Of a DNA stretch of 57,333 bases, positions 13,798 through 18,673 are shown piece by piece. Each line of letters starts with the position of its first letter. The first letter of the stretch is position 1. The notes under the pieces were generated by a model. That model was not told the DNA's origin and ran no database searches. It saw nothing but the letters and a program-made list of their open reading frames with translations. Position numbers and translations under genes: made by a program. Origin of the DNA: Gammaproteobacteria bacterium (GTDB taxonomy: Bacteria > Pseudomonadota > Gammaproteobacteria > JAADGQ01); the NCBI GenBank assembly GCA_021648145.1, contig JAKITI010000017.1, positions 1-57,333 on the forward strand, read 5' to 3'.

Positions 13798-15222
13798 GTG
13801 TCTGCTATCACAACAGATGAAAAGACATACAACTTCGATATCGTTAGAGCATTTACCATCTGCGCTGTAGTGTATTTGGTGGTGGGTGCTTCTATTGGTG
13901 TCTATATTGCCTCAGAGTTGGCTTGGCCAGCACTGAATTTCGATAGCCCATATTTGACTTTTGGTCGTTTACGACCATTGCATACAAATGCGGTTATTTT
14001 TGCTTTTGGTGGTTGTACTTTAATGGCGACCGCATTCTATATCGTTCAACGTACATGTCATGTACGGTTATGGAGCGATAAGATGGCTTGGTTTACTTTC
14101 TGGAGCTGGAACTTCGTCATTGTATGTGCAGTAATTACATTGCCTTTGGGTTACACGCAAGGTAAAGAGTATGCAGAGCTGGAGTGGTGGATTGATATCA
14201 TCCTTGCCCTTTCATGGCTCTCTTACATGATCAACTTTATTATGACGTTGGTGATCAGGAGAACATCCCACATTTATGTGGCGAATCTGTTCTTCCTAGG
14301 TATGATGATCATGATCACCTACCTGCATGTCGTGAACTCGGCAGCGATTCCAGTTTCAATGATGAAATCGTATTCTGCTTATGCAGGCGTTCAAGATGCG
14401 ATGATTCAATGGTGGTATGGCCATAATGCAGTAGGTTATTTCTTGACAGCTGGTTTCCTTGGGATTATGTATTACTTCATTCCCAAGCAAGCAAATCTTC
14501 CGATCTTCTCATATCGTTTGTCGGTGCTTCATTTCTGGGCTCTGATGTTCGGTTATGCTTGGTTGGGTGCGCATCATTTGCAATATACCGCGCTTCCTGA
14601 CTGGACTGGATCTTTAGGTGCTGCAATCTCTATTGCTATGATTATTCCTTCGTGGGGTGGTGCATTGAATGGTCTGTTGACACTTTCTGGTGCATGGCAC
14701 AAGTTACGTGATGACTACATTCTTCGTTTCTTGATTATCTCTCTGGCTTTCTATGCAATGGCTACTTTTGAAGGCCCTGTCATGGGAATCAAGACGGTTA
14801 ATGCATTGTCTCATTATACAGACTGGACTATAGGTCACGTTCACTCAGGTGCATTAGGTTGGGTTGCAATGGTCTCTTTTGGTGGTATTTACCATATGGT
14901 GACTCGTTTATGGGGTCGTGAAATGTACTCAACAACGTTGTTGGGCGTTCATTTCTGGCTGGCAACAATCGGTGCTGTTATTTACATTTGTGCAATGTGG
15001 GTGTCCGGTATTATGCAAGCGCTGATGTGGCGTGCGACAGATGAGTATGGCAATCTGGTTTATACGTTTGTTGAATCTGTTTCCGCAATGCATCCGTTTT
15101 ATGTAATGCGTGCAATTGGTGGAGCACTCTTCTTGCTCGGCGCTATTCTTATGCTCTATAACATTGTGATGACTATTCGCAGTGCCAAGAGTGAAACAAA
15201 TATGGCAACAGCCAACGCATAA
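13798..15222 (+). CDS. ccoN: cbb3-type cytochrome c oxidase subunit I
   Basis: A GTG start at 13798, 7 bp after ATGGAGG, gives a 474-residue protein, the normal CcoN size; an upstream in-frame start at 13723 would add an unlikely 25 residues. Twelve membrane helices are expected. Haem and copper ligands are visible: [14 protein letters not shown] (low-spin haem b His), [11 protein letters not shown] (CuB His and the helix VII Tyr region), [13 protein letters not shown] (two CuB His) and [10 protein letters not shown] (haem b3 and low-spin haem His). It reduces O2 to water at high affinity and pumps protons. First gene of ccoNOQP. Confidence 0.97.
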
Positions 15223-15236
15223 GAGGAGAGAATTCA

Positions 15237-15902
15237 ATGGCTCATAATAGCAATGAAAAAATGTCTTTCCAGGAAAAGACGGAAACAAAGGTCTGGCTCT
15301 TGGTTATTTGTCTGGCATTAGGGCTTTCAGTTGCGGGTATTGTACAGATTTTGCCGCTTAGCTATCTCGATAGTACCTATGAAACGCTGACTGAAGAAGA
15401 AGATGGTATTCGTCCTTACACAGCGCTCGAACTGGAGGGTCGTGATATTTACATTCGTGAAGGTTGTTACACTTGCCATTCGCAAATGATTCGTCCTTTC
15501 CGTGATGAGAAACAGCGTTATGGACACTACTCTTTGGCAGTGGAATCCAAGTACGATCATCCGTTTCAATGGGGTTCAAAACGTACTGGACCTGATTTGG
15601 CTCGTGTCGGTGGTAAATACTCAGACGAGTGGCACTATCAGCATATGATGGAGCCTAAGTCTGTTGTACCTGAAACTGTGATGCCTGCTTATCCGTGGTT
15701 AGCAACTGAAATAATAGATCATACGATGACTGCAAAAAAGATGAACGCTTTATCGATAGTTGGGGTTCCTTATACTCAAGCAGATATGGATGGAGCAGCT
15801 GATGCGGTTCAAGGCAAAACAGGAATGGATGCCATGATCGCTTATTTGCAAGTATTGGGTACGATGGTAAATTTCCAGGAAGGAAAGGATTACCGTCAAT
15901 GA
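15237..15902 (+). CDS. ccoO: cbb3 oxidase monohaem cytochrome c subunit II
   Basis: 221 residues: one N-terminal membrane helix (about 19-40), then a periplasmic cytochrome c domain with [12 protein letters not shown] (haem binding) and a Met ligand in [10 protein letters not shown]. These are diagnostic of CcoO/FixO. GAGGAGAG ribosome site before the ATG, 14 bp after ccoN. It takes electrons from CcoP and passes them to the CcoN low-spin haem. Its stop overlaps the ccoQ start by 4 bp. Confidence 0.97.
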
Positions 15903-16120
15903 TTGAATCCGTGAAGGAGTATTTTCACACGGATTGGGCGGCTATGACTGATACCGATTGGTTCGGGCTTGTGGCCGTCATTATCCTAAGCGTTTTGATG
16001 CTTATTCTTTATTTTTATGTATTTAATCCTAAAAATAAAGATAAGCTCGAAAGTCATCGTGATTTCGTATTAAAAGATAACTCGACTGTTGGAGAGGATA
16101 ACCATGGCGATAAAAAATAG
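15899..16120 (+). CDS. ccoQ: cbb3 oxidase small subunit CcoQ
   Basis: 73 residues with one membrane helix ([23 protein letters not shown]) and a charged C-terminal tail ([16 protein letters not shown]), typical of CcoQ/FixQ, which stabilises the assembled oxidase. Overlaps ccoO by 4 bp and ccoP by 17 bp, so it is translationally coupled to both. Confidence 0.93.
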
Positions 16121-16961
16121 CCAAAATCAGGTGCCTGATACCGGACATGAGTGGGACGGTATTCGGGAATTAACTAACCCGCCACCACGTTGGTGGACAA
16201 TTGCTTTTTACCTAAGTGCTGTTTGGGTAATAGTGTATTTAATCATCTACCCATCAATTCCTTTGGTAACAGACCATACTAAAGGTGTGATTGGCTGGAC
16301 TGCAATTGGTGAGTATAAGGAAGCGGTTGCTGCAAATGATGCGATTCGTAAACCTTATCTCGATAAGTTGGAAACAATGAGTGCTCAGGATATTATCAAT
16401 GACCCTGAAATGCTTAATTTTGCTAACTCATCAACCAAAGCGTTATTTGGTGATTACTGTGCTGCTTGTCATGGCTCAAATGGCCAAGGCATAGCAGGTA
16501 TGTTTCCTGTGCTGCTGGATGATGACTGGTTGTATGGGGGTACTGTTTCAGATATCACCACTACAATTGCCAGTGGTCGTAAAGGAAATATGCCAGCTCA
16601 TACAGGTACTCTTGATGACACGCAAATCAATCTTTTGACTGATTTTGTGATTGCAGCAGCAGCAGGGAGTGCAACCCAGGAAGGTTGGGATGCTTACCAG
16701 GCGGCAGGTTGCTTTGCATGTCACGGTGCTGATGCAAAAGGTAACAAATGGATGGGTTCAGCGAACCTGACTGATGGTATCTGGCGCTTTGGCAGTGATC
16801 GTGAAGCTGTGATGAATGTTATTAAACATGGTGTTAATCAAGACGGTGTTGATGGTACTGTAGATGGTGTCATGCCAGCATTTGGTGACAGACTATCGAC
16901 AAATGACATTAAATTGTTAACCGTTAAGGTCTGGTCTCTTGGCGGAGGCCAATCGGAGTAA
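16104..16961 (+). CDS. ccoP: cbb3 oxidase dihaem cytochrome c subunit III
   Basis: The ATG at 16104 follows GGAGAGG closely and gives 285 residues; an in-frame start at 16089 has no ribosome site. An N-terminal membrane helix (WWTIAFYLSAVWVIVYLIIYP) is followed by two cytochrome c domains with CAACHGSNGQG and CFACHGADAKG, and Met ligands in KGNMPAH and GVMPAFG. It accepts electrons from soluble or membrane-bound cytochromes c and feeds CcoO. Last recognised structural subunit, 72 bp before a 37-codon reading frame. Confidence 0.97.
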   Translation: MAIKNSQNQVPDTGHEWDGIRELTNPPPRWWTIAFYLSAVWVIVYLIIYPSIPLVTDHTKGVIGWTAIGEYKEAVAANDAIRKPYLDKLETMSAQDIINDPEMLNFANSSTKALFGDYCAACHGSNGQGIAGMFPVLLDDDWLYGGTVSDITTTIASGRKGNMPAHTGTLDDTQINLLTDFVIAAAAGSATQEGWDAYQAAGCFACHGADAKGNKWMGSANLTDGIWRFGSDREAVMNVIKHGVNQDGVDGTVDGVMPAFGDRLSTNDIKLLTVKVWSLGGGQSE

Positions 16962-17033
16962 TCCCTTCCATAACCTTTTAAGGAAGGGATTGTATCTCTT
17001 CCTTTCTAACACTAAAATTTTAGGAGGTTCATT

Positions 17034-17147
17034 ATGGACGCAGTTGCAATTGGTGCAATTCTTACTGTTGTTGCTACCGTTATCATTGTTGTATATATGT
17101 TCATTAAAGGTTACAAACTGATGAATGACGATTCTGATAAAAGTTAG
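17034..17147 (+). CDS. 37-residue single-helix membrane protein in the cco operon
   Basis: ATG at 17034 follows a strong AGGAGG ribosome site (TTTTAGGAGGTTCATT). The peptide MDAVAIGAILTVVATVII... has one membrane helix over about residues 5-24, then a short polar tail (KGYKLMNDDSDKS). It lies between ccoP and a strong terminator, so it is transcribed with ccoNOQP. Size, single helix and position recall CcoM, the small extra subunit seen in the Pseudomonas stutzeri cbb3 structure, but I see no clear sequence match, so it is only a candidate oxidase subunit or assembly peptide. Confidence 0.75.
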   Translation: MDAVAIGAILTVVATVIIVVYMFIKGYKLMNDDSDKS

Positions 17148-17163
17148 TTATAAAAATCTTTGG

Positions 17164-17209
17164 AAAAAGTAAAGGGGCATTTTGCCCCTTTACTTTTTAT
17201 TTTTTTTAA
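17164..17209 (+). terminator. Rho-independent terminator after ccoNOQP and the 37-residue gene
   Basis: AAAAAGTAAAGGGGCA and its complement form a 16-bp stem with a 3-nt loop (17164-17198), followed by ATTTTTTTT. It separates the structural operon from ccoG, which needs its own promoter or read-through. Confidence 0.92.
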
Positions 17210-17245: not shown

Positions 17246-18673
17246 GTGAGTGAAGAAAAAAACAATTTAGAAAATATCCATAATATAGAAAAAATTTACA
17301 ATGAAAGTGCTGAGCACTTTGATGTGAATTTGGGCGGTAAAAAAATTCACCCTAAAAAAGTTTCTGGACGATTTAGGAACTATAAGAATTTTGCATGGGT
17401 TTTCTGGATTGGATATATTTTATTACCTTACCTGCGTTGGGATGGCCAGCAATCGATTCTTTTTGATATTCCAAAGCGACAATTTCATCTGTTTTCTATC
17501 ACTGTTTACCCGCAAGATATATGGATGTTGGCGTTTTTGTTGATTCTGCTCGCAATGATGTTGTTTGGGATCACCGCAATTGCAGGGCGTGTTTTTTGTG
17601 GTTATTTCTGTTTTCAAACAGTATGGACCGATTGGTTTGTTCAAATTGAAAGTTGGATTGAAGGGAATCCCACACAAAGAAGAAAGCTGGATGATGCTCC
17701 CTGGAGCGCGAAAAAAATCCGAAAAAAATCATTTAAATATTTGATTTGGATTTTGATTTCACTGCTTACGGGAATTACCTTCGCGGCTTATTTTACGGAT
17801 GCCTATCAATTATGGGTTGATATTTTTACTCTCCAGGCACACCTCTATGTATGGGTGACTTTACTGGCCTTTTTTGTCGGTACATTTTTGTTTGCCGGTT
17901 TTATGAGAGATCAGGTCTGTTTATGGCTCTGCCCGTATGCTCGAATTCAATCTGTGATGATTGATAAAGATTCAATTTTGCCAACCTATGATGTAAAAAG
18001 AGGTGAACCTAGAAGTAAAGCTAAAAAAGGGGTGATTGACTCGGAGCATGGAGATTGTATTGATTGCAAAGTCTGTGTTGCGGTGTGTCCAATGGGGGTT
18101 GATATACGTAACTCAGCGTTGCAAGAAGGCTGTATCATGTGCGGTGTCTGCATTGATGCTTGTGATGACATAATGGATAAAGTGAATAGACCACGGGGTC
18201 TGATTCGTTACAATTCTGAAAAAGAAATTGAAGGTATTGATTTGCCTCCAGTATATAAACGACCTCGGGTCATAATATATGCAGGCATCAGTTTGATTGC
18301 AATCATGGCAATTGTAATGGGTTTGCTGAATATTCCGCCACTGGCAGTAACGGTTATTCATGAGCGTCAGCCTATGTATGTCACTATGTCTGATGGATCT
18401 ATACGCAATAGTTATACATTTAAAATTTTGAATAAAACACCTGAAGCGCTCAATGTGAAAATTTCTGTTGAGGGTATTGATGGTATTGTCATGAAGGGGG
18501 TGGGTGAATTTGTTATACTTAAACCAAATAAGATGATTCCTTTCAGTGTCCGGTTGGAAGCCATGCCTGATAAGGTGGTAGATAAAAAAGTCCCTGTGTA
18601 TTTTACAATTACAACGGTAGACAGTGACATTAAAATTTCTGAGCGATATGAAAACTTTTTTGCCAAACCCTGA
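17246..18673 (+). CDS. ccoG: Cytochrome oxidase assembly protein CcoG (FixG/RdxA)
   Basis: 475 residues with a GTG start and only a weak ribosome site. Five or so membrane helices span about 55-225 (including RVFCGYFCFQTVWTDWF and QVCLWLCPYARIQ). A 2[4Fe-4S] ferredoxin domain at about 270-310 shows CIDCKVCVAVCPMGVD and CIMCGVCIDAC. A C-terminal Ig-like domain follows a last helix (IIYAGISLIAIMAIVMGLL). CcoG is a cupric reductase that prepares copper for CcoN. First gene of the assembly cluster ccoG-H-I-S. Confidence 0.95.
   Translation: MSEEKNNLENIHNIEKIYNESAEHFDVNLGGKKIHPKKVSGRFRNYKNFAWVFWIGYILLPYLRWDGQQSILFDIPKRQFHLFSITVYPQDIWMLAFLLILLAMMLFGITAIAGRVFCGYFCFQTVWTDWFVQIESWIEGNPTQRRKLDDAPWSAKKIRKKSFKYLIWILISLLTGITFAAYFTDAYQLWVDIFTLQAHLYVWVTLLAFFVGTFLFAGFMRDQVCLWLCPYARIQSVMIDKDSILPTYDVKRGEPRSKAKKGVIDSEHGDCIDCKVCVAVCPMGVDIRNSALQEGCIMCGVCIDACDDIMDKVNRPRGLIRYNSEKEIEGIDLPPVYKRPRVIIYAGISLIAIMAIVMGLLNIPPLAVTVIHERQPMYVTMSDGSIRNSYTFKILNKTPEALNVKISVEGIDGIVMKGVGEFVILKPNKMIPFSVRLEAMPDKVVDKKVPVYFTITTVDSDIKISERYENFFAKP

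Follow-up and report, generated by a model that had tools for sequence, protein, structure and literature searches.

cbb3 oxidases serve respiration at very low oxygen. In the window analysed here (the whole stretch of DNA, 57,333 nucleotides), a short frame lies between two genes of such a system, ccoP and ccoG. Does this frame encode a protein at all and, if so, does the protein belong to the oxidase?

A small gene between ccoP and ccoG

The frame stands within a cco gene cluster read on the forward strand. We assigned ccoN (catalytic subunit, 13798-15222) from a full-length alignment of relatives and from the CcoN tree, ccoO (monohaem cytochrome c subunit, 15237-15902) from synteny and similarity, ccoP (dihaem cytochrome c subunit, 16104-16961) from the loci of relatives, and ccoG (maturation factor with 4Fe-4S domains, 17246-18673) from its Fer4_18 and FixG_C matches. 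A divergent small subunit gene, ccoQ, occupies 15899-16120. Its product, separate from the 37-aa protein discussed below, scores 19.9 bits against FixQ for a cut-off of 29 and has homologues in all operons of the clade.

The small ORF runs from an ATG at 17034 to 17147 on the same strand and encodes 37 aa (MDAVAIGAILTVVATVIIVVYMFIKGYKLMNDDSDKS). A gap of 72 nt separates the ccoP stop (16961) from this ATG, and an AGGAGG ribosome-binding site (17022-17027) is found 6 nt 5′ of it, similar sites being present in relatives. AlphaFold2 predicts a single helix covering residues 3-34, with a mean pLDDT of 87.8. Sixteen nt past the stop begins a terminator-like hairpin with a T-run (17164-17208, forward strand, fold z -5.3). 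The 37-residue frame with its AGGAGG site, the single helix and the terminator just 3′ of the gene had all been put forward in the original prediction, and each was borne out.

Related loci were retrieved using CcoP as bait (45 loci returned); consequently, these relatives were not selected for the presence of the small ORF. Where the contig spans the ccoP-ccoG gap, almost all loci contain a short ORF that is similar to the query or recognised by the family profile. The clear exception is a Methylococcales contig (L047), in which ccoH comes directly after ccoP. Family members are 35-45 aa long and possess an invariant Asp near the start, followed two residues on by a nearly invariant Val. ATG is the start codon of every distinct member (57/57), nearly always behind a purine-rich RBS. 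For 90 pooled pairs of members, pS is 0.62 and pN 0.15, a ratio of 0.24, and close pairs show pN/pS of about 0.03-0.1. Protein similarity between members is still detectable at about 30% identity. The occurrence of relatives at this position in dozens of genomes, together with the uniform ATG, the RBS and the pooled pN/pS, leads us to reject a chance ORF: the small gene encodes a real, selected protein. The original prediction had staked itself on conservation in relatives, and position, length, charge pattern and frame all proved to be conserved.

The charge pattern is strict. Among aligned members, Lys and Arg number 0 before the helix (38/38 are without any) and 121 after it, the signature of a helix that would lie N-out/C-in throughout the family. 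Short length, one helix and uniform orientation are features of one-helix oxidase subunits as a functional class, and the family displays all of them, as well as the linkage to and co-inheritance with the oxidase described in the next section.

Hairpins recur on both sides of the gene. Of 48 relatives, 29 have the downstream one with its T-run, where shuffles give 1.2. Another one, which lacks a proper T-run, separates ccoP from the small gene (about 16959-16992, forward strand, fold z -3.2) and had been absent from the original prediction; it occurs in about half of the relatives (24/48, against about 3 in shuffles), with a sequence that changes between them. Such recurrence in relatives would suit an RNA element, a leader or attenuator acting on ccoG, in which the reading frame is incidental. 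We give this reading practically no chance: the low pN/pS, both pooled and in close pairs, the invariant ATG and the protein similarity persisting at low identity form a codon-level pattern by which an RNA-only element is ruled out. The upstream hairpin is possibly an mRNA processing, stabilising or attenuating element and, given its presence, the messages of ccoP and of the small gene may be processed or attenuated apart. Judging from the sequence, the small gene is probably part of the ccoNOQP transcript. A scan for FNR/Anr boxes with 2 mismatches allowed returned 81 against 58 expected, too common a motif to be informative.

Distribution along the CcoN tree

Strong matches to the family profile (E <= 1e-5) were obtained in 35 of 369 genomes of the class. 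CcoN is present in 35/35 of these, and no strong match was found among the 141 class genomes without CcoN. The matches examined in context are flanked by ccoP and ccoG, in operons that also encode a window-type CcoQ; the match in G080 falls at a contig end, where its placement relative to ccoP and ccoG is not readable.

In a CcoN tree of 101 rows, a non-random sample partly picked by positive or negative profile search of the corresponding genomes, all carriers group in one clade (SH-aLRT 100). They represent 64 of its 73 rows, or 64 of the 71 testable ones when two non-carrier rows cut by contig ends (L033 and L042) are left out. The carrier label changes 7 times along the tree, against 30.2 in shuffles, and the small gene occurs in 0/28 rows outside the clade, Pseudomonas included. 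The class sample alone gives 35 carriers and 6 non-carriers among judgeable window-type operons. Carriers of the clade belong to Gammaproteobacteria and Zetaproteobacteria, with one Nitrospinota contig (L043). Zetaproteobacterial carriers obtained with the CcoP bait include Mariprofundus; many further genomes, of one other family (f207), come from the phylum sample.

The remaining non-carriers of the clade are G004/G363, G084, G110, G232 and one Methylococcales sequence represented twice (L047, and L219 from G233). In these genomes the family profile search found no match elsewhere either. They would correspond to gene losses in about five lineages, which suggests that the small protein is helpful, not essential, to this oxidase type.

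Three genomes carry a second family member remote from the cco genes: G138 (L274 5669-5788, reverse strand), G345 (L275 5321-5440, reverse strand) and G126 (L276 6808-6921, forward strand). These extra copies have a distinctive tail, RITRLMK-x-CNS, with a Cys. A search of the plasmid collection found no family member.

Comparison with known small proteins of oxidases

The window protein matches nothing at threshold in Pfam, NCBIfam or the PDB, and searching the PDB with the profile of the family returned nothing significant. Matches of family members to Syndecan, small_EYxxD, CbiN and other Pfam/NCBIfam entries stay below cut-off and resemble chance hydrophobic matches. CcoQ/FixQ is comparable in its small size, single helix and location in the same operon. 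The 37-aa protein has no FixQ (PF05545) match and no significant similarity to CcoQ and, since a separate ccoQ exists in the same operons, we reject its identification as CcoQ or as a CcoQ duplicate.

In Campylobacter jejuni, the genes of two small one-helix proteins, CcoX and CcoY, come directly after ccoP; deletion of ccoX abolishes oxidase activity and deletion of ccoY reduces it (PMC8267372). Both share with the window protein the single helix and the gene position. CcoX differs in that its family, DUF4006 (PF13179), went undetected at the locus when 6 carrier genomes were searched, and the likeness to CcoY is one of position. CydX and YnhF, too, are one-helix oxidase subunits that annotation had missed for a long time (PMC9264385; PMC12350097). 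They belong to a different oxidase, cytochrome bd, and the likeness is one of kind.

The nearest profile match is CcoM, for which we used chain N of 5DJQ (P. stutzeri) and the curated model NF041600 (cut-off 40 bits) as references. Like the family, P. stutzeri CcoM (36 aa) has one helix, an Asp near the start and several Lys/Arg after the helix but none before. NF041600 did not match the window protein, and the best family member reached 21.3 bits, below the 40 required. Sequence-to-profile comparison was marginal (p 0.02-0.06). The CcoM model nevertheless aligns in register with Methylophaga members (E 2.8e-4). When the two profiles are compared, a weak similarity extends in register over 35 columns from the first Met with a score of 22.7. 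This exceeds 400/400 column shuffles (10.6 +/- 2.3), and the maximum obtained with 148 real helix windows of Cco proteins against CcoM was 15.7. As the score stands above all shuffles and control windows, remote homology between the family and CcoM is plausible. The suggestion of a CcoM analogue in another lineage, made in the original prediction, thus appears reasonable, although the match lies below the NF041600 cut-off.

Could the family be the true counterpart of CcoM, that is, an ancestral small subunit whose gene most lineages kept in the ccoNOQP operon and which is encoded elsewhere in Pseudomonadaceae? This would be a sharper form of the accessory-subunit explanation presented below, not an alternative to it. 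The in-register profile match and the Methylophaga alignment support it, as does the distribution of the two proteins: CcoM is present in 98 of 119 Pseudomonadaceae genomes, where no member of the window family was found, it passes the cut-off in none of the 36 carrier genomes (0/36), and no tested genome has both. Yet the best score remains below the cut-off and the sequence-to-profile test marginal. Moreover, the oxidase of CcoM belongs to another CcoN branch, Pseudomonas CcoN lying outside the carrier clade, so that the non-overlap may be mere phylogeny. Among the genomes tested in the class, only G163 and G364 pass the NF041600 cut-off, and G364, which is outside Pseudomonadaceae, also has its CcoM (L280 4177-4341, forward strand) remote from the cco genes, a further point against this reading. 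On balance, we hold that the family is quite possibly the counterpart of CcoM in this strict sense, somewhat short of probably so.

Pseudomonadaceae ccoM was not near cco genes in the one locus examined (L279), and most of the ccoP-ccoG gaps read in this group are without small helix ORF. One gap (L150) contains a weak 35-aa candidate unlike CcoM or the window family, another (L155) a helix ORF of 74 aa that overlaps with the frame of ccoG. A search of the class with the single CcoM sequence gave mostly chance membrane matches.

Proposed role in the oxidase complex

We think it likely that the small protein, with its single helix, is dedicated to one clade of cbb3 oxidases, as an accessory subunit or as a stabiliser of assembly. 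This reading draws on the location of the gene, flanked by ccoP and ccoG in nearly all operons of the clade, and on its co-inheritance with CcoN in that single clade, on selection (pN/pS and start codon), uniform topology and the single helix, and on the precedents of CcoM and CcoX/CcoY together with the profile similarity to CcoM. Counted against it are the about five lineages without the gene, the hairpin after ccoP and the three genomes with a remote extra copy.

We infer the following scheme of expression with the oxidase, docking and stabilisation. The small protein would be made most likely from the ccoNOQP transcript. Its N-terminus with the invariant Asp would face the periplasm and its Lys/Arg-rich end the cytoplasm. 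The helix would pack against the membrane surface of CcoN/CcoP and hold the assembled complex together, comparable to P. stutzeri CcoM, which, according to PMC8267372, is needed for complex stability, not for activity. Operon position and co-inheritance both point to a physical association with the oxidase. On the whole, the original prediction was largely right.

The operon position would fit a transient assembly factor equally. Such a helper of assembly or maturation, acting in CcoP insertion or in CcoG-dependent copper/haem handling, would be absent from the finished complex. Its gene would be well placed between the structural genes and ccoGHI, the place also taken by CcoX/CcoY in Campylobacter, where the complex members identified by mass spectrometry are given without mention of CcoY (PMC8267372). 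However, the family conserves only the Asp and Val near the start and no metal-binding or catalytic residues, which better suits a structural helix, and CcoM, its nearest profile match, is a subunit. We therefore regard a transient helper as unlikely.

If the small protein is indeed an accessory subunit, the usual picture of CcoNOQP with its four subunits is incomplete for many environmental bacteria, iron oxidisers and sulfur symbionts among them, and CcoM ceases to be peculiar to Pseudomonas. We would even suggest, tentatively and with more doubt than conviction, that it is both a subunit encoded in the operon and overlooked across a whole cbb3 clade (Gammaproteobacteria, Zetaproteobacteria and Nitrospinota) and the ancestral state of CcoM, the ccoM gene having moved out of the operon in Pseudomonas.

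Some observations concern other genes of these clusters. CcoQ of the carrier clade is overlooked by a six-frame genome search with PF05545. According to the genome paper of Mariprofundus PV-1, CcoQ is not encoded there (PMC3179512); contrary to this, we found a CcoQ homologue at 4775-5017 of L022. On a Methylophaga thalassica plasmid, a ccoN without annotated adjacent ccoO or ccoP (L282 5010-6461) stands beside sulfite reductase and DsrE-type genes.
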